46,265 nt of DNA from Candidatus Nitrotoga sp. CP45 (GTDB lineage: Bacteria; Pseudomonadota; Gammaproteobacteria; Burkholderiales; Gallionellaceae): positions 1 to 46,265 of the forward strand of contig CAMCFJ010000023.1 of NCBI GenBank assembly GCA_945874105.1, read 5' to 3'. A program made the translations under genes and the position numbers. The first letter of the stretch is position 1, and each line of letters begins with the position of its first letter. Shown here in pieces: positions 539 to 37,941 of this stretch. Below the pieces are notes generated by a model. The model made no database searches. It had not been told where the DNA came from and saw only the letters and a list, made by a program, of their open reading frames with translations.

Positions 539-1009
539 GAACCAGCTACCTGAGTTTTTCTATGGTCTGAAGCGTTGGGCCTCGATGGAACATCCGATGG
601 AAATTGGAACATACAGGCGACAACTAGTATCACGACCTGTTAATTGCGAAACATACGTTGCATGGTGTGGTGCTCAGTTACGACAGCCCTCTCTCCAACT
701 CTCTCCCGCAAGCGGGAGAGAGGGTGGTCGTCCCCTCTCCCGCTTGCGGGAGAGGGTTAGGGAGAGGGTAATTACCGCAACTCAGCTGCCATTAGAGAAA
801 TTAAATCGAGAATCAGGGCATTATTTCACGCGCACTATTCGGCATGGACGTTGTACCGAGCCATGTGAAATCTACAAGGTGAACAGATATTGCGAGGGTG
901 AGTGATGTTTAATGCGGTAGGCTGAAAAAAAGATGGACTTGAACGTTTTAAAACTTGAAACTGAAATGCAAACCAACCACCGGCTTTAGCTGATGACTAG
1001 TTTGGTGTC
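539..1009. other. Intergenic stretch holding MITE copy 1
   Basis: About 470 bp separate pilE from the DUF3135-like gene. The middle (624-792) is a MITE copy listed separately. The open frame across 537-905 is produced by the repeat and shows no protein-like composition. I see no other gene or clear terminator here. Confidence 0.6.
624..792 (+). repeat. MITE copy 1 (long type, right end missing)
   Basis: It begins CTAGTATCACGACCTG and runs through the two core hairpins (around CCCGCAAGCGGG and CCCGCTTGCGGG) to CCGCAACTCAGCTGCCA. There the similarity to the other copies stops, so the right terminal inverted repeat is lost. It carries the ~35 bp segment GCATGGTGTG...CAGTTACG found in long-type copies. 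Confidence 0.85.
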
Positions 1010-5517: not shown

Positions 5518-6627
5518 TCACATGTTTCTGAGTCGAATGACGGTACTAAACACTTCTCGCCGATAGTGATCGTCTGGGTTGGGGGGTATAGTTTTGTCCC
5601 CGAGCGTGAAGGTTGTCGTGTTGCGGTAACCTGGTTCAGGTTTTGTTGCACGTACAAGAATCCAAACCCGAACTGTCGAAACATCGTTCCATTGGCTAGG
5701 GGTAACCGTCGCGCTGATGGAATCAGCATTGTAAAACTGTGTGTTCAGGTCGGTGGTAAAGCGGCCATATTGAATTTGCATGTCTTCGACGTTGCTTGCC
5801 ATTAGCGTAGGCGTTAAGGCAGGGCCGGCGCTTAACGCAAGCCTGTATAGCCCCGGGATTCTGGGGTTTTCAGTCACAGAAGATGAAAATGGACTGACAT
5901 AGTAAACGGTCGATTCCAGTGCATAGTCGACGTTCGGGGTCTGCGTGAAGAGCGGTGGTTGGGGGCTACTAGGGGGGCTACTAGCCATGAATACCTCGCC
6001 CCGTTCGTATGCCGAACGGACATACAGTTTATTCGGTTCTAATGGAGTTATGGTCAGCGCCGCGTGTCGTACCACGAGAACGTCGCCAGTAGAGTAATTC
6101 GCAGACGGGATGCAGGTGGCCGAGAAAGGATTGGCGTCGTTGCTGCCCCACACTCCCTGGCTCAAGTTGATTGAAAAACCGGTTGCGCAGTCGCCTGTAA
6201 CCGCCCCTATAGTAGTAGTCGGAATGCTCGGCGGAGCCCATGTTAACCCTCGGTATCCAGCATGCAGTAAATCACGTCGCAAAATCTCGATTGCGTAGCG
6301 GCCATTGGTTGAAATTTCCGATGCCGACGCGATGGTTATCTCACTCGACAAACTTGTCACAAACATCGCACTGACGCTGATCAGAATCAACAAAGCAATC
6401 GTAGAAGCGACCATGAATTCCACGATCGTAAAACCTCGTTCGCCACGTGGTGCGTAACACACTACAGGTGAGTGCAACGCATTCAGGCAATGCTGAACAA
6501 GTCCCTCCGTTCGGGCTGAGCCTGTCGAAGTCATTTGCGAGTCATTGATTTGCAGGGTGTCCGTTTCGACAAGCTCAACGTGAACGGACTTGTTCAGCGT
6601 AGCCTTAATTGATTGTTTGATTGTCAT
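5518..6627 (-). CDS. pilW: Type IV pilus minor pilin PilW with repeat-extended leader
   Basis: The 369-residue product has the prepilin site RGERG|FTIVEFMVASTIALL with cleavage after Gly65 and Glu at +5, followed by a PilW-type body that contains EILRRDLLHAGYRG. The leader is abnormally long, 65 residues where about 5-30 is usual. Residues ~7-50 (through VELVETDTLQ and TSTGSARTEG) are encoded by a ~130 bp REPIN-like repeat at 6479-6610 whose second copy lies between genes at 23456-23585. The ATG at 6627 sits 11 bp after pilV. Starts beyond most of the repeat (Met32, or GTG at codon 56 giving a 10-residue leader) are possible but lack a clear ribosome site. The protein would join the minor-pilin tip complex. 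Confidence 0.88.
   Translation of the reverse strand: MTIKQSIKATLNKSVHVELVETDTLQINDSQMTSTGSARTEGLVQHCLNALHSPVVCYAPRGERGFTIVEFMVASTIALLILISVSAMFVTSLSSEITIASASEISTNGRYAIEILRRDLLHAGYRGLTWAPPSIPTTTIGAVTGDCATGFSINLSQGVWGSNDANPFSATCIPSANYSTGDVLVVRHAALTITPLEPNKLYVRSAYERGEVFMASSPPSSPQPPLFTQTPNVDYALESTVYYVSPFSSSVTENPRIPGLYRLALSAGPALTPTLMASNVEDMQIQYGRFTTDLNTQFYNADSISATVTPSQWNDVSTVRVWILVRATKPEPGYRNTTTFTLGDKTIPPNPDDHYRREVFSTVIRLRNM
6479..6610 (-). repeat. REPIN-like repeat, copy A, inside pilW
   Basis: This imperfect inverted repeat of ~130 bp has outer ends ATTAAGGCTACGCTGAACAAG and its inverse ATTCAGGCAATGCTGAACAAG. Inside are two facing GTTCGGGCTGAGCCTGTCGAA-type arms. It is close to identical over its core to copy B at 23456-23585. 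It lies in the 5' coding part of pilW and stays in frame. Confidence 0.85.
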
Positions 6628-8080: not shown

Positions 8081-8291
8081 CTAGTATCGCGACCTGTTAA
8101 TTGCGAAACATACGCTGCATGGTGTGATTCTCAGTTACGCCAACCCTCTCTCCAACTCTCTCTCACAAGCGGGAGAGAGGGTGATCGTCCCCTCTCCCGT
8201 TTACGGGAGAGGGTAATTACCGCAACTCAACTGCCATGCTGCAGGTAAATCCAAAATAATATGTTTCGTTATTTACGATTTGAAATACTAG
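8081..8291 (+). repeat. MITE copy 2 (long type, complete)
   Basis: Both ends are present: CTAGTATCGCGACCTG at the left and ATTTGAAATACTAG at the right. The first core hairpin is partly decayed (CTCACAAGCGGGAG) and the second is the CCCGTTTACGGG variant. The stretch TTAGGGAGAGGG seen in other copies is missing. Confidence 0.9.
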
Positions 8292-12245: not shown

Positions 12246-12434
12246 CTAGTATCACGACCTGTTAATTGCGAAAACCCTCTCTCCAACTCTCTCCCGCAAG
12301 CGGGAGAGAGGGTGATCGTCCCCTCCCCCGCTTGCGGGGGAGGGTTAGGGAGAGGGTAATTACCGCAACTCAACTGCCATGCTGCGGGTAAGTCCAAAAC
12401 AATATGTTTCGTTATTTACGATTTGCAATACTAG
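12246..12434 (+). repeat. MITE copy 3 (short type, complete)
   Basis: It runs from CTAGTATCACGACCTG to ATTTGCAATACTAG. It lacks the ~35 bp GCATGGTGTG...TTACG segment of the long type. Both hairpins are perfect (CCCGCAAGCGGG, and CCCCCGCTTGCGGGGG with a compensated extra C/G pair). It separates the two acyltransferase genes. Confidence 0.92.
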
Positions 12435-15255: not shown

Positions 15256-15708
15256 TTGGATCTGATTTTATGGCGGCATGCAGATGCCGAGGACGGCATG
15301 CTGGACGACGCACGCAAACTTACCGCAAAAGGCGAAAAACAGGCTCAACAGATGGGGCGATGGCTCAAATCCAATCTTCCAGAGGGTGCGCGCATTCTAG
15401 TCAGCCCGGCAAAGCGTGCGCAGCAGACGGCAAGCGCCCTGGGCCGGGAGTTCGAGACCACAAGAGAAGTCGGCACAGGAGCATCCGTCATATCGGTACT
15501 GGCTGCAGCAGGCTGGCCAAATGCCAAAGGTGCGGTGGTTGTGGTCGGCCATCAGCCAACCTTGGGACGCATAGCTGCTGCGTTGCTGTCGGGCGTCGAG
15601 GCTGACTGGAGCATCAAGAAGGGCAGCGTGTGGTGGTTTAGCAACCGCTTACACGATGACGAAAACCAAACCATACTGCGTGTGGTGATGTCGCCGGAAT
15701 TTCTTTAG
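15256..15708 (+). CDS. sixA: SixA-type phosphohistidine phosphatase
   Basis: The 150-residue protein is a short histidine phosphatase of the SixA type. The catalytic motif is RHADAED (LWRHADAE, His8), followed by LTAKGEKQAQQMG, the SPAKRAQQTA segment and the second catalytic His in VVVGHQPTLG. SixA removes phosphate from histidine phosphotransfer or PTS domains. Translation starts at TTG (15256-15258), since a GGAGG ribosome site lies 8 nt before it and the protein starts directly with the domain. It follows the CYTH-CHAD gene by 76 bp; the two often neighbour each other. Its substrate here is unknown. Confidence 0.88.
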   Translation: MDLILWRHADAEDGMLDDARKLTAKGEKQAQQMGRWLKSNLPEGARILVSPAKRAQQTASALGREFETTREVGTGASVISVLAAAGWPNAKGAVVVVGHQPTLGRIAAALLSGVEADWSIKKGSVWWFSNRLHDDENQTILRVVMSPEFL

Positions 15709-15803
15709 GTCATTAAGTCCATACCGCTTCTAAAAGCTCCGTTACTTATAATTTTCTTGACATGCACCCGTGTCACATCAGGTCGAAATGGCTCCCATTT
15801 GAC

Positions 15804-16027
15804 CTAGTATCGCAAATCGTAAATAACGAAACATATTGTTTTGGATTTACCCGCAGCATGGCAGTTGAGTTGCGGCAATTACCCTCTCCCTAACCCTCTC
15901 CCGTAAACGGGAGAGGGGACGGCCACCCTCTCTCCCGCTTGCGGGAGAGAGTTGGAGAGAGGGTTGACGTAACTGAGCATCACACCATGCAACGTAATGT
16001 TTCGCAATTGTCAGGTCGTGATGCTAG
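15804..16027 (-). repeat. MITE copy 4 (long type, complete, inverted)
   Basis: This is the longest and best copy at 224 bp. The left edge is CTAGTATCGCAAATCGTAAATA and the right edge, read inverted, is CTAGCATCACGACCTG. Terminal inverted repeats of ~32 bp are imperfect. The hairpins are CCCGTAAACGGG and CCCGCTTGCGGG. It lies in opposite orientation to the other five copies. Confidence 0.93.
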
Positions 16028-16107
16028 GCATTGAGTTCATCAACTGCTTGCAAATCTTTCTCTTTGAGTGCGCCCATATATTCTTGATGGGCAGATAAAA
16101 GTATTAT

Positions 16108-16134
16108 AAAAAAGGCCGCGTTATGCGGCCTTTT
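16108..16134. terminator. Rho-independent terminator, bidirectional
   Basis: AAAAAGGCCGC-GTTAT-GCGGCCTTTT forms a strong stem with A and T tracts on both sides. It lies downstream of the phytase-like gene on the minus strand and, from the plus side, beyond sixA and MITE copy 4. Confidence 0.85.
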
Positions 16135-16200
16135 CATTAATGCATATGCATCGGAAACCTAATATTTATTGGTTACCGAGCAGAAGATGGCATCTATCTA

Positions 16201-17577
16201 CTACCTGCCGCCATGTAAATCGCAATCTTCTTCGGCTTCATCATGAGTTGAATGACTAAATTTTTGCGCAGAGAATGAATTCAAATCTGACTCATCAATC
16301 GAGAATACAAAAAACTGGTTGGGGTTATCGATACCGTCAACAGTAGGCAGAAAATCGTTGTCATTAGCTATAAATAAAGTGTGCTTATTTACACCATTGA
16401 TAACCATGTCAGGACCGAAAGCAACACCTTCAAGTTTGGCAGGAACGTGCGTTGAAGGAATACCGTTTGCGTTCAATTTGGCCAAGACATCCACAAACAA
16501 GGTTTTGCTAACTAATGGAGTACCTGAGCCAATAGTAGGCGTGCTGATTTTGGTTGCGCCTGCGAGATCAATTTTGTACAGTTTTTTAACAACTGCTGCA
16601 TCGCCATTTCCCAAGCCGCTACCATCACGCTCATCAACTAAAAACTCGTGTTCATTAATGGCCAAAATATCGCTGACACTACTGCCATCAGTCAATTTAT
16701 ATGCATATTCATTAGTTACTCCAGTGGCGATATCGATCGTAATAATTCGCACATATTTTTTTGTATCCTGACTCAGGTTTTGCTGCATCATGCCAACCAA
16801 TGTCTTGCCATTTGGAGTAATAGCCAGGCCTTCCATACCTTTATTTGAAATTCGACCGATGGTGTTGCCTAATATTTCGTCAGCTCCTTGTGCATCTAGC
16901 GTATTGATAGCAAAGTATGCGGGCAGCGTGAAGGCTTTAATACGTTTACCACTTGAGCGATCGAATTGATAAACATAAGGGCCGTATTCATCTGTGATAA
17001 ATACGCTTTTGCCATCATTGGATACGCGGATACCTTCAGGATCCAAGCGAGCATTTTTTGGGTTAGTGGATGGTTTTGTTGCGTCAAAATTATCTGAACG
17101 ACCGCTAAAATAAAATTTATCTTCGTTGTTTATAACAGGCGCTCCATTAACACCGTATGCAAGTTGCGACTTGCTGAACAGCAAAGTGGTATCTGTCAAA
17201 AACGGTGACACTATGTAAGGCAAGGAACCAATGATTGATGAATCGTAGCGAGGATTAGGTGCCAAAGACAAACTGAAAGTTTGAAAACGAGGGATGTAGG
17301 AAGTCGTATCATCAACATCTATATTGTAGGCTGTAGCATTTGGGCCGCGATCAGGGAGAGCAAGAAAGGTATTGCCCCCAGCGTAAGCTAAACCAGAACC
17401 AACGCCACCCAGAAGGTTTCCAGCAACGCCGTTTTCAAGATGTGCAGCGGTTTTTGTTGCCATATCCTGGTATGTGCCACTGACTTGACCAATTCCGATA
17501 AGATTTATATCTGCTTGAGCAGCTGAGACCACGAAAAAAGGTAACAGTAAGAATGGAATAAGATGATTGTTTTTCAT
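16201..17577 (-). CDS. Secreted phytase-like (esterase-like) beta-propeller protein
   Basis: The 458-residue protein has a Sec signal peptide (1-22, cut after AQA). The body matches the phytase-like domain (PF13449 type): LALPDRGPNA near 72-81, RLDPEGIRV and FITDEYGPYVYQFD near 180-210, NKGMEGLAITPNG near 245, and LEGVAFGPDM with LFIANDNDF near the C terminus. It is predicted periplasmic or extracellular. The family includes phosphoesterases but most members are uncharacterised, so the substrate is open. The C terminus is acidic and His-rich. It is transcribed convergently with sixA and ends at the strong terminator at 16108. Phosphate scavenging would suit the neighbourhood. Confidence 0.8.
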   Translation of the reverse strand: MKNNHLIPFLLLPFFVVSAAQADINLIGIGQVSGTYQDMATKTAAHLENGVAGNLLGGVGSGLAYAGGNTFLALPDRGPNATAYNIDVDDTTSYIPRFQTFSLSLAPNPRYDSSIIGSLPYIVSPFLTDTTLLFSKSQLAYGVNGAPVINNEDKFYFSGRSDNFDATKPSTNPKNARLDPEGIRVSNDGKSVFITDEYGPYVYQFDRSSGKRIKAFTLPAYFAINTLDAQGADEILGNTIGRISNKGMEGLAITPNGKTLVGMMQQNLSQDTKKYVRIITIDIATGVTNEYAYKLTDGSSVSDILAINEHEFLVDERDGSGLGNGDAAVVKKLYKIDLAGATKISTPTIGSGTPLVSKTLFVDVLAKLNANGIPSTHVPAKLEGVAFGPDMVINGVNKHTLFIANDNDFLPTVDGIDNPNQFFVFSIDESDLNSFSAQKFSHSTHDEAEEDCDLHGGR

Positions 17578-23455: not shown

Positions 23456-23585
23456 GAGTTAATCCTACGCTGAACAAATCCGTTCGCGTTGAGCCTGTCG
23501 AAACGCACTCCCTGCAAATCAATAACTTGCAAATGGCTTCGACAGGCTCAGCCCGAACGGAGCGACTTGTTCAGCATTGCCTTAA
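23456..23585 (+). repeat. REPIN-like repeat, copy B
   Basis: This is an intergenic copy of the element found in the pilW leader, with ends TACGCTGAACAA and TTGTTCAGCATTGCCTTAAT. Two facing TTCGACAGGCTCAGCCCGAACGG-type arms flank a CTGCAAATCAATAACTTGCAAAT centre. It follows ppk1 directly. Confidence 0.85.
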
Positions 23586-23680
23586 TGCCAGTTCTACGCG
23601 GACACCGCGTCATTGCAACTGAACTACTGTTTTAAATTAATCGAGTTGGCAGTTTTATAAACTGCCAACGGAGTAGCATT

Positions 23681-32439: not shown

Positions 32440-32618
32440 CAATGATCAGTTACGCCAACCCTCTCTCCAACTCTCTCCCGCAAGCGGGAGAGAGGGTGAT
32501 CGTCCCCTCTCCCGTTTACGGGAGAGGGTTAGGGAGAGGGCAATTACCGCAAATCAACTGCCACGCTGCGGGTAAATCCAAAACAATATGTTTCGTTATT
32601 TACAATTTGCGATACTAG
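32440..32618 (+). repeat. MITE copy 5 (long type, left end missing)
   Basis: Similarity starts at TGATCAGTTACGCCAACC and runs to ATTTGCGATACTAG. The left CTAGTATC terminal repeat is absent. The hairpins are CCCGCAAGCGGG and CCCGTTTACGGG. Confidence 0.88.
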
Positions 32619-32619
32619 T

Positions 32620-32671
32620 GGTTCGACAAGGCCTTCAGTCCTGAGCAAAGTCCAAGGGTCACCACGAACGG
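32620..32671. repeat. REP-like segment (GGTTCGACAAGGCCTTCAGTC type)
   Basis: GGTTCGACAAGGCCTTCAG...CCTGAGCAAAGTCCAAGGGTC is shared, with small changes, with 37340-37398. It is a member of the widespread GTTCG/CGAAC repeat class. Confidence 0.65.
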
Positions 32672-34584: not shown

Positions 34585-34772
34585 CTAGTATCACGACCTG
34601 TTAATTGCGAAAACCCTCTCTTCAACTCTCTCCCGCAAGCGGGAGAGAGAGTGATCGTCCCCTCCCCCGCTTGCGGGGGAGGGTTAGGGAGAGGGCAATT
34701 ACCGGAACTCAACTGCCATGCTGCGGGCAAATCCAAAACAATATGTTTCGTTATTTACGATTTGCGATACTC
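34585..34772 (+). repeat. MITE copy 6 (short type) overlapping the fadE 3' end
   Basis: It runs from CTAGTATCACGACCTG to ATTTGCGATACTCG; the final CTAG is changed to CTCG. The hairpins are CCCGCAAGCGGG and CCCCCGCTTGCGGGGG. The last ~22 bp lie inside the fadE reading frame and supply its stop codon. Confidence 0.92.
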
Positions 34773-37204
34773 GACTCTGCCGCCAGTTGTTCCGGTGCAA
34801 AATCATCCACCATGATGACCTTGCGTTGTAACGCATGGTCGCGCTCCAGCAGTCGGGCTTCTTCGGCATTGATGAATCCTTTGTGAAGTGCTTCTGCAAT
34901 GCACATCAAATCGCTCATGGCCGTGACCTGCCCGGCCTTGTGCGCCGCATCCACTTTTGCTTGCACGGGTTCGCACTGCAACGTGCTGAGTAACGCAGCT
35001 TCCAGCGCTCCAACCGCGTCATTTTCATCATCGGGCAAATACATGCCCGCAGTCAGGCGGTCACGCGCAGCGCCCGGTTGCTGCAACAGCACTGACACTT
35101 CATGCCCCAGCTCATCCGACGGTGGTGCCAGATTTTTCCCCCTTGGAAAAATAAGCGCGCGCAAAAACAGCGCGGGAAGACGGCCGGAAAAGTTATGCAG
35201 CACGCCATCAAACGCCATCTGAATCCTGTACAGAGCATCCTGTATGGCCCAGTGCAGCAACGGCAGATCTTCGACGGGACGGCCATCATTCTCGAAGCGT
35301 TTAAGCGTGGCCGAACACAGATACAACTGGCTCAGCACATCGCCCAGCCGGGCAGAAATTTTCTCGCGCCGCTTGAGATTCCCACCCAGCATCAGCATGG
35401 ACAAATCTGCTGCCAGCGCAAATGCAGCTGAATAGCGCGTCAATTGCTGGTAATAACGCTTTGTATTCACACCCCCCGGCACCGAAATGCCACGCCCATC
35501 GGTAAGACCAAACAAGCAAGCCCGTATCGCATTGCTTAGGCTCAAACTAATGTGGCCAAGCAGGGCGGCATCAAAATTTAGTAGCGCACGTTGCGTATCA
35601 CTATCTTGCGCCGCCTGTATTTCCTTAAGCACATAGGGATGAGAACGGATCGCGCCCTGCCCAAAAATCAGCAGGCTGCGCGTCAGGATATTTGCGCCTT
35701 CCACCGTAATGGCGATGGGATTCTGCTGGTGGGAACGCCCCAAGTAATTGCTCGGCCCCAGGCAAATCCCCTTGCCACCATGCACGTCCATCGCATCATT
35801 GATAACCGTGCGCGCGCGCTCGGTACAATGATATTTAACGATGGCGGAAATCACGGACGGTTTCTCGCCCATATCCACCGCTAATGCCGTTAGTGAGCGT
35901 GCCGCATCCATCATATAAGCGTTACCGCCAATTCGTGCCAGCGCTTCTTCCACGCCTTCAAATTTACCGACAGGTAGCTTGAACTGCTTGCGCACTCGGC
36001 TATATGCGCCACAAGTTCGCACTGCCAGCTTCACTCCGCCGGTGGCGCAGGCCGGCAGCGAGATTGATCGCCCAGCTGCCAAACACTCCATCAGCATGCG
36101 CCAGCCCTGCCCGATATGATCCATTCCTCCAATAATATATTCCATCGGGATGAACACATCCTGGCCCGAAGTGGGGCCGTTCTGAAATGCCGAATTGAGT
36201 GGAAAATGACGACGCCCGATCTGCACGCCGGGCGTATCTGCAGGAATCAGCGCAAGGGTAATACCGTGCTTTGCCTGCTCGCCAAGCAGACTGTCCGGAT
36301 CATGCAATTTAAAAGCAAGGCCAAGCAACGTCGCTACCGGTGCCAGTGTGATGTAGCGTTTTTCCCACGTTACCCGTATACCGAGCACATTTGATTGCCC
36401 GTCGAATTCGCCGTAGCACACGATGCCATAATCAGGAATCGATCCTGCATCGGAGCCAGCGGATGGCCCGGTCAACGCAAAACAAGGTACCTCTTTGCCC
36501 TGTGCCAATCTGCGCAGATATTTCTCTTTTTGCTCAGCCGTGCCATAGCGCATGAGCAACTCTGCCGGACCCAATGAATTCGGTACCATCACGGTTACGG
36601 ATGCAGTAATGCTGCGTGAAGCAATCTTGGCCACCACGGCGGAATGCGCCAGCGCAGAAAATTCCAGCCCGCCATATTCCTTGGGAATAATCATGCCGAA
36701 GAAACCATTATCTTTGATGTACTGCCATACCTGCGGCGGCAAATCCTGGCGCACATGAGTAATGTCCCAGTCGTCCAGCATGGCGCACAAAACTTCGGTT
36801 TCATTATCGAGAAAGGATTGCTCCGCTTCAGTGAGCGTCGGCTTGGGGTAACTCAACAACTTGCGCCAATCAGGGTGGCCACTAAAGAGATCGCCGTCCC
36901 ACCAAACCGTACCCGCATCGAGTGCCTCCTGCTCGGTTTGCGAAATATGGGGAAGTGTCGTGCGAAAAATTTTCAGTATTTTACTGCTCACAAACTTGCG
37001 ACGCAGAGAAGGAACGCCCAGCACTGCTGCAATCACGGCCAGCAAGATAATGGCAACTTGAAAAAGATCAGCGGAAAGTTTGGTTTGGATAGCGATGACA
37101 AAAACAAAGACTGCCGTCGCCAACAACCATCCCCATATGGAGGATCGAAAAAACGCCAACAAAATCATTACGGCCAGCATCACTAGCAAAGTCAATATAA
37201 CCAT
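34751..37204 (-). CDS. fadE: Acyl-CoA dehydrogenase FadE
   Basis: The ~817-residue protein has the FadE layout: two N-terminal hydrophobic segments (1-60), then an acyl-CoA dehydrogenase core (about 120-520) with DNGFFGMIIPKEYGG, FALTGPSAGSDAGSIPD, TWEKRYITLAPVA, LMECLAAGRSISLPA and VHGGKGICLGPSNYLG, and the DUF1974 C-terminal region (about 540-790). It performs the first, FAD-dependent beta-oxidation step at the membrane. Two in-frame ATGs exist; I chose 37204 because the AAAGG ribosome site is correctly spaced for it. The last residues SSIANRK and the TAA stop come from MITE copy 6, so the native C terminus was probably altered by the insertion. Confidence 0.93.
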   Translation of the reverse strand: MVILTLLVMLAVMILLAFFRSSIWGWLLATAVFVFVIAIQTKLSADLFQVAIILLAVIAAVLGVPSLRRKFVSSKILKIFRTTLPHISQTEQEALDAGTVWWDGDLFSGHPDWRKLLSYPKPTLTEAEQSFLDNETEVLCAMLDDWDITHVRQDLPPQVWQYIKDNGFFGMIIPKEYGGLEFSALAHSAVVAKIASRSITASVTVMVPNSLGPAELLMRYGTAEQKEKYLRRLAQGKEVPCFALTGPSAGSDAGSIPDYGIVCYGEFDGQSNVLGIRVTWEKRYITLAPVATLLGLAFKLHDPDSLLGEQAKHGITLALIPADTPGVQIGRRHFPLNSAFQNGPTSGQDVFIPMEYIIGGMDHIGQGWRMLMECLAAGRSISLPACATGGVKLAVRTCGAYSRVRKQFKLPVGKFEGVEEALARIGGNAYMMDAARSLTALAVDMGEKPSVISAIVKYHCTERARTVINDAMDVHGGKGICLGPSNYLGRSHQQNPIAITVEGANILTRSLLIFGQGAIRSHPYVLKEIQAAQDSDTQRALLNFDAALLGHISLSLSNAIRACLFGLTDGRGISVPGGVNTKRYYQQLTRYSAAFALAADLSMLMLGGNLKRREKISARLGDVLSQLYLCSATLKRFENDGRPVEDLPLLHWAIQDALYRIQMAFDGVLHNFSGRLPALFLRALIFPRGKNLAPPSDELGHEVSVLLQQPGAARDRLTAGMYLPDDENDAVGALEAALLSTLQCEPVQAKVDAAHKAGQVTAMSDLMCIAEALHKGFINAEEARLLERDHALQRKVIMVDDFAPEQLAAESSIANRK

Positions 37205-37941
37205 TACCATCCTTTCTTATTCTCAGGGCAACCTCTATAGACCCTGAAAATAGATATCTCCTTGACGCACGCAGCATTACGTTTCAGCAAACCAATTACC
37301 GTTCGCGGTGAGCTTGTCGAACCGCTGGTTCCGCGCCAGCACTGGCCTTCGACAATACCTTCAGTCCTGAGCAAAGTCGAAGGGTCAGGCCGAACTGCGT
37401 CTTCTCGTTATATGGTGAATCGATCCGTTACGTGCGTGAAGTGGATACCCACTATCCTGAATTTTCCATCCCGGCAAAGGAACGGCCACATTTTTAGAGG
37501 TTCCTCTATACCTAAACATGCGGAACTTTAACGTCAGTATGCCTTGCTGACAATGTTTAACTTATTGCATGCGCTCTACCGCCTCTTCTAAATCAATACA
37601 AATGCAAATCCAAAGGCAAATCAATTGCCACACGCGATTGACAACGCACATCTCAAAATCAGAATCAGTCGCCATCTATCGCCTCGTTTGCCACTTCTAT
37701 CGATTTCTATTGGCATCGCCTTGAAAAAGGGTACAGAATTAGCCCGTTCACGCTTTGAAACATGGCTAAATTCACACTAACTGACAATCTTGGTTAATTT
37801 GATATTTTGTTGCCGGGATTGTCATGATTAAGTTCGGACAATTTATGGATCACGCAAACAGGGGACGTCTCTCGAATGGCACTTATCATTGGAATAGGAC
37901 TGATGTGTTTTTCGGAATGAATGTGCGTTACACTTAGCCGT
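37205..37941. other. Long intergenic stretch, fadE / HD-GYP (divergent)
   Basis: About 735 bp lie between divergent genes. It holds a REP-like repeat (37299-37398) and AT-rich DNA with no protein-like frame. Both promoters should be here; I cannot place them with confidence. Confidence 0.45.
37299..37398. repeat. REP-like inverted repeat
   Basis: CCGTTCGCGGTGAGCTTGTCG faces CCTTCGACAATACCTTCAGTC...AAGTCGAAGGGTCAGGCCGAAC across a short centre. The right half is shared with 32620-32671. The type is related to the arms of the REPIN-like elements in pilW and after ppk1. Confidence 0.7.

Follow-up and report, generated by a model that had tools for sequence, protein, structure and literature searches.

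A non-autonomous IS630/Tc1-mariner-type element of Candidatus Nitrotoga as the probable vehicle of an inverted pair of triplex-type motifs

Here we describe a short repeated element of Candidatus Nitrotoga sp. CP45, one copy of which lies at 15804-16027 of the window, i.e. of the whole 46,265-nucleotide stretch of DNA analysed, which represents contig C23 of an assembly (G000) of 2.5 Mb in 50 contigs. The element is very probably a non-autonomous MITE of the IS630/Tc1-mariner type, which served as a vehicle spreading a pair of triplex motifs through this genome. In favour of its status as a MITE are the inverted ends, the number of copies, the empty sites found in relatives and the existence of an insertion sequence (IS) with the same ends, and its role as a carrier of triplex-type motifs is directly visible. 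As far as the available part of PMC4666352 goes, paired palindromes of the triplex type had not previously been linked to any mobile element. Their residence on a transposable shell provides a concrete, testable means of spread.

The mechanism that we propose is as follows. Two ends of approximately 31 bp, resembling those of an IS630-type IS, enclose DNA that has no relation to this IS. Excision of the MITE and its insertion at CTAG would be carried out by a transposase provided in trans, with duplication of TA (or of CTAG). The cargo is an inverted pair of intrastrand-triplex motifs, which may form triplexes in the cell, and the core may be maintained by selection or by templated correction.

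When the copy 15804-16027 was used as a query against its own assembly, 57 matching pieces were obtained, corresponding to approximately 31 places and a few short core fragments. The six copies that the original prediction had recognized in the window were refound independently, each at its own coordinates, and four of them have both ends (Table 1). We fetched and examined 30 places of the genome (C4:46340 was left out): 21 have both ends as judged by the end pattern, and L026 has them as well, with a deletion inside one end. The two predicted length classes are represented by 15 long (typically 223 bp) and 11 short (typically 189 bp) copies, which differ by 34 bp, the remaining four being left unclassed. 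Mean pairwise identity of the 22 extracted two-edged sequences is 0.916 (0.854 to 0.989). The ends are imperfect inverted repeats of approximately 31 bp beginning with CTAG-TATC, in good agreement with the approximately 30 bp proposed from the window: a 31-base end pattern (up to 3 mismatches) matches the genome 41 times and its reversed control never, and all 41 matches fall at places found by the whole-element search. Inverted ends are thus conserved over many copies in the genome. No transposase gene was found in any copy examined, again as predicted. The element is therefore short, non-coding, bounded by terminal inverted repeats and present in many copies, as is typical of MITEs. Its sequence at 15804-16027 folds better than 200 of 200 shuffled versions (z -7.9 as DNA, -10.5 as RNA). 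An Rfam scan of the window returned tRNA only and no other family, and a terminator scan of 15600-16300 returned one site, lying outside the MITE.

Table 1. MITE copies and their parts in the window, and the state of clean empty sites in relatives
Feature	Position	Strand	Remarks
MITE copy, long class, without right (B) end	624..792	+	
MITE copy, long class, both ends, right unit minus 12 bp	8081..8291	+	
MITE copy, short class, both ends	12246..12434	+	empty in 9 relatives
MITE copy, long class, 224 bp	15804..16027	-	CTAG at either edge; position of ends: A, 16027; B, 15804
B terminal inverted repeat, 31 bp incl. CTAG	15804..15834	.	end-pattern search
Core, two inverted triplex-type units	15882..15964	.	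motif named in PMC4666352 (available part)
A terminal inverted repeat, 31 bp incl. CTAG	15997..16027	.	end-pattern search
MITE copy, left (A) end lost	32442..32618	+	
MITE copy, short class, both ends	34585..34773	+	overlaps 3' end of acyl-CoA dehydrogenase gene 34751-37210 (-)
Empty site	12246		nine relatives without element; tetramers such as CCAA, CTAA
Empty site	15804		G010 CTAG, G014 CGAG; by eye; right flank agrees for ~10 bases only
Empty site	34585		G015 CTCG, G010 TTCG
Empty site	C24:32279		five relatives, all CTAG
Empty site	C24:44215		G015 CTAG; left flank aligned over 33 bases only
Empty site	C24 tandem pair		G014 TTAG, G010 CTAA, G006 CTAG
Empty site	C12:61214		CTAG, TTAG
Empty site	C3:44379		seven relatives: six CTAG, one TTAG
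Empty site	C27:5771		TTAG, CTAG
Empty site	C9:41700		CCAG in two relatives

All six copies of the window are intergenic or situated at a gene end, as had been noted from the window, with the correction that the 34585 copy reaches into the end of an acyl-CoA dehydrogenase gene. This copy provides the last codons and the stop of the gene, whose product ends with SSII-stop in G015 and with SSIANRK-stop in our genome. The copies are also clustered: seven of the approximately 31 are found in a 16.3-kb part of contig C24 (Poisson P 2e-9), all seven belonging to the short class, which has 11 members in all. The six copies of the window give P 3e-5, for a window that was picked because of these copies. 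Local hopping is the likely origin of the C24 cluster, since relatives align along this stretch yet lack copies at the resolved sites. Among 60 relatives, full-length matches to the MITE occur in G015 only, among the matches listed, while the A-end pattern matches 7 of 158 genomes of the family, our own included. A wider contig scan relied on one exact 28-base A end, a probe that would miss diverged copies. One copy of the MITE, with a single longer palindrome, is present in CAMDAX010000181.1 (labelled Nitrosovibrio).

The comparison of filled and empty sites that had been advised together with the prediction covered 22 of about 30 MITE sites, and at 10 of them relatives have a clean empty site with a single CTAG-like tetramer (Table 1). 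At eight further sites (8081, 32440, C24:38103, C24:39867, L005, L008, L027 and L029) both flanks were found with DNA extra or missing, although C24:38103 is perhaps clean too, with ATAG in G010. For the last four, one flank only was found (624), or no contiguous flank pair among the matches listed (L004, L007 and L010). The L027 site is filled both in our genome and in G015, and this insertion therefore predates their split. Because relatives have one tetramer and our genome has one on each side, the duplicated target would be either 2 bp (TA) or 4 bp (CTAG) long. The two copies of the C24 tandem pair have one CTAG in common (edges TTAG, CTAG and CTAG) and, over a TTAG site of the G014 type, fit TA duplication without any mutation. 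A 4-bp duplication would account for C27:5771, where TTAG stands at either edge and also in G015. At 34585, L026 and L027 the tetramer of the relative has no TA and is found on one side only; plain duplication, be it of TA or of CTAG, would not yield this without a further mutation. In G015 (L193, contig C68), the site of our tandem pair is occupied by a different repeat, beginning with CTAGTAGATCGTT.., which would seem to represent a second insertion at that CTAG; similar sequence is found near L004 and L011 in our genome.

A candidate source of the transposition functions was found among related bacteria. A search of 120 genomes of the family for paired MITE-type ends revealed pairs 1148 or 1197 bp apart at five places in G006 and once each in G066, G029, G140 and G115, as well as a pair in G129 at a looser match. 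The insertions of G029, G140 and G115 have their flanks in common and therefore look like one inherited insertion. The IS630-type ISs of G006 (L083-L087) occur in both lengths, 1148 and 1197 bp, within one genome. We examined the transposase of two elements, L084 (a G006 copy) and L089 (the G029 copy), and both carry between their ends an IS630-family transposase gene made up of two overlapping ORFs. The ORFs of L089 match the NCBIfam IS630 model (NF033545) with 3.1e-38 and 3.4e-17, the second below the curated cut-off, and Pfam DDE_3 is matched with 3.5e-25; L084 behaves alike, its larger ORF scoring above and its smaller ORF below the NF033545 cut-off. The IS ends differ from those of the MITE at several of 31 positions, and their similarity scores are 18 and 23 for the G006 IS and 15 and 19 for the G029 IS, as against no more than 10 for seven other IS630-type loci (G010, G014 and G133). 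An autonomous IS with the same ends, which the original prediction had recommended seeking, thus exists in relatives but was not found in our own genome: the assembly yielded no intact IS630 transposase, only two hits below the cut-off, and the helper is therefore absent, lost or not assembled.

The IS630/Tc1-mariner family inserts at TA, which is duplicated (PMC2170065, available part), and IS630 itself prefers the TA of CTAG as its target, to judge by the title of Tenzen & Ohtsubo 1991, which the same paper cites. The MITE resembles IS630 and ISY100 in the transposase family of the IS with matching ends, in the CTAG target (IS630) and possibly in the TA duplication described for ISY100; it differs from them in having no transposase and an interior unrelated to the IS. 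The parent had originally been sought in the IS5 family, some members of which would duplicate a 4-bp YTAR target. CTAG at both edges and the TTAG tetramers of C27:5771 are what such a parent predicts, but the tandem pair over the TTAG of G014 is explained by TA duplication (although G010 has CTAA and G006 CTAG there), and it is an IS630 transposase that lies between the matching ends in both full-length elements tested. We have therefore dropped the IS5-family parent, which now appears extremely improbable. A related element with ends beginning CTAGTGTCGC.. and a different palindromic core was observed in G023, G011 and G078 (L072, L074 and L078), the last of these genomes having 28 matches to its ends.

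The core of the MITE consists of two units, CCCTCTCCC-loop-GGGAGAGGG-TTA-GGGAGAGGG and CTCTCTCCC-loop-GGGAGAGAG-TTG-GAGAGAGGG, in inverted orientation. Each comprises a pyrimidine 9-mer, a 6-base loop, a purine 9-mer, a 3-base linker and a mirrored purine 9-mer, that is, the pyrimidine-purine hairpin and mirror-repeat third strand that characterize the TMECO type, and by this layout it is a predicted intrastrand triplex motif. The left unit is free of mismatches in most copies, and the right one has 0-2 mismatches in 19 copies; the two adjacent palindromes predicted for the core are thus confirmed as inverted hairpins, though not as perfect ones in every copy. In the available part of PMC4666352, the E. 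coli motif is described as forming a triplex in vitro and as widespread and always intergenic; its authors report that they found no link between it and mobile elements, and they do not settle how it spreads. Both the layout (CCCTCTCCC-loop-GGGAGAGGG-TTA-GGGxGAGGG in E. coli) and the intergenic position agree, and TMECO sometimes occurs in inverted pairs too. Unlike TMECO, the pair described here sits in a MITE, and its third strands are on the outer side, whereas those of the two E. coli pairs examined, around which no shell was obvious by eye, are on the inner side. Titles and abstract openings, among the matches listed, contained no report of a triplex motif in a MITE.

Similar core doublets lacking the MITE ends are present in other genomes, i.e. 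the core is an independent repeat, a point that the original prediction had missed, and it is for this reason that we regard the MITE as having acted as a vehicle for the motif. Around eight such doublets, inverted repeats gave z of at most 1.8 in seven cases and 3.5 for L032, which is perhaps enclosed in another shell; the test is a weak one, as elements with known ends may also score low (L080 0.4, L238 1.4, L240 -0.8; copy 15804 3.6).

The occurrence of the core without MITE ends in relatives could also mean that the hairpin pair moves on its own, like a REPIN mobilized by a Y1 transposase, and merely prefers CTAG ends as a landing site, and genes or gene fragments of Y1 transposases are indeed present in our genome. 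Such movement would leave empty sites lacking the core alone, but those observed lack the whole element including its ends, and all end matches coincide with whole-element places. Moreover, the inverted hairpin pair of a REPIN is bounded by GTAG and CTAC, whereas the core of our genome lacks GTAG at its edges, and the CTC hairpin flanks only 5 of 30 Y1-transposase loci examined, several of which overlap. On the same count, a RAYT origin of the CTC core appears unlikely. Core-free shells beside shells with a precisely inserted core were not seen in the copies examined. Movement of the hairpin pair by itself is thus very unlikely, and transposition of the entire MITE is the reading that we retain. 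As regards REPINs and other GTAG-bounded REP doublets, the core shares with them the inverted hairpin pair and the dispersed occurrence, alone or within other sequences (PMC3116915 and PMC3733652, available parts).

Most of the core is nearly invariant. We compared 19 of the extracted copies, leaving aside L013, L026 and L027 on account of their partly deleted cores. The left hairpin, taken together with both third strands, departs from the consensus at only 5 of 816 letters, compared with 110 of 2155 in the shell (P 1.5e-10, a descriptive value, because the right hairpin was excluded after the differences had been viewed and the copies are related). The direction is the same in 19/19 copies, and the contrast, with the right hairpin likewise excluded, is found in G/C columns and in A/T columns when these are taken apart. 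Once the right hairpin, which is no more constant than the shell, is counted in, the core deviates at 43 of 1272 letters (P = 0.02 against the shell). No stem pair of the left hairpin is ever lost, and two stem pairs of the right one show coordinated double changes (TA/CG 10:9 and 7:12), with four unpaired stem cells in total. Mean pairwise differences are 0.011 and 0.024 in the third strands and 0.08-0.11 in parts of the shell. Nine copies of our genome with a changed right hairpin retain the old third strand; hairpin and third strand are both changed in a single case, L031 of G015.

This constancy may have no function at all and reflect gene conversion or template switching between palindromes instead of selection, an explanation to which we give almost an even chance. 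Coordinated changes of stem pairs, such as those of the right hairpin with its few unpaired cells, are a known product of quasi-palindrome correction. However, the third strands, located outside the hairpins, are nearly constant as well, and correction within hairpins is therefore insufficient, although conversion between copies could explain their constancy. Known insertion sites, together with near-invariant cores in variable shells, allow one to ask what the palindromes do.

Homologous ends also enclose other cores. In G133, a genome of another genus, ten loci have the same ends without the inverted pair found in our genome, and contain two kinds of REP-type palindrome, complete or partial, GTAGGTTGGGTTA.. 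and GTAGGGCGGGT.., the former of which is also present in G157 and G132. GTAG cores between homologous ends thus occur in three genomes (G133, G157 and G132; loci L092, L163 and L080). Three of the ten loci (L093, L096 and L097) have a single CTC hairpin between REP parts, which is of the triplex type in two of them. L093 (G133:C185), with a triplex-type hairpin within a REP doublet within a MITE, represents a three-level nest. A 198-bp element of G133 matches our genome by its end regions only (within bases 1-48 and 168-198), while its core (approximately 54-161) matches G133 at many further places. Among 12 such places that were fetched, four are doublets without such ends, five have a second end sequence, CTAGTGTTT.. 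(both ends in one of them), and three have a third kind, CTAGTACC.. (both ends in two, with TTAG at the other edge of the third). The CTAGTGTTT.. and CTAGTACC.. shells were found through the core, so that the frequency of REP cores among shells is not readable from these counts; the first shell, with MITE-type ends, was found by its ends only.

The same ends thus surround unrelated, GTAG-bounded REP doublets that also exist alone and beside two other kinds of CTAG end, and the shell therefore has the appearance of an IS630-type vehicle whose palindromic cargo can be exchanged. This suggests that Tc1/mariner-type MITEs can carry REP-type repeats along. As a tentative and more general proposal, plausible in itself but on balance doubtful, IS630-type shells might be general vehicles of palindromic repeats in the family, their cores being exchanged and the function of the cargo keeping the core constant; the proposal covers three kinds of CTAG-ended shell and at least three unrelated palindromes (the triplex motif and two GTAG REP types). 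If true, it would supply a route by which the triplex motif spreads, with cargo useful to the cell or to transposition. The closest precedent that we found for a REP doublet in a shell is that of the GTAG-15 dimers of A. variabilis, which lie inside long palindromes (PMC3733652, available part). The bacterial MITEs NEMIS, ERIC and Nezha resemble our element in being short and gene-free, with inverted ends and strong secondary structure; unlike here, the available part of that paper does not describe them as having unrelated cores swapped between homologous ends.

Two other repeats were observed in the window. One of approximately 122-130 bp is present as inverted copies at 6479-6608 and 23459-23588, and also in several genomes of the genus. 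The other, a 48-bp sequence beginning TTCGACAAGGCCTTCAGTCCTGAGC.., occurs at 32622-32669 and 37348-37395, and is perhaps part of a dispersed family.
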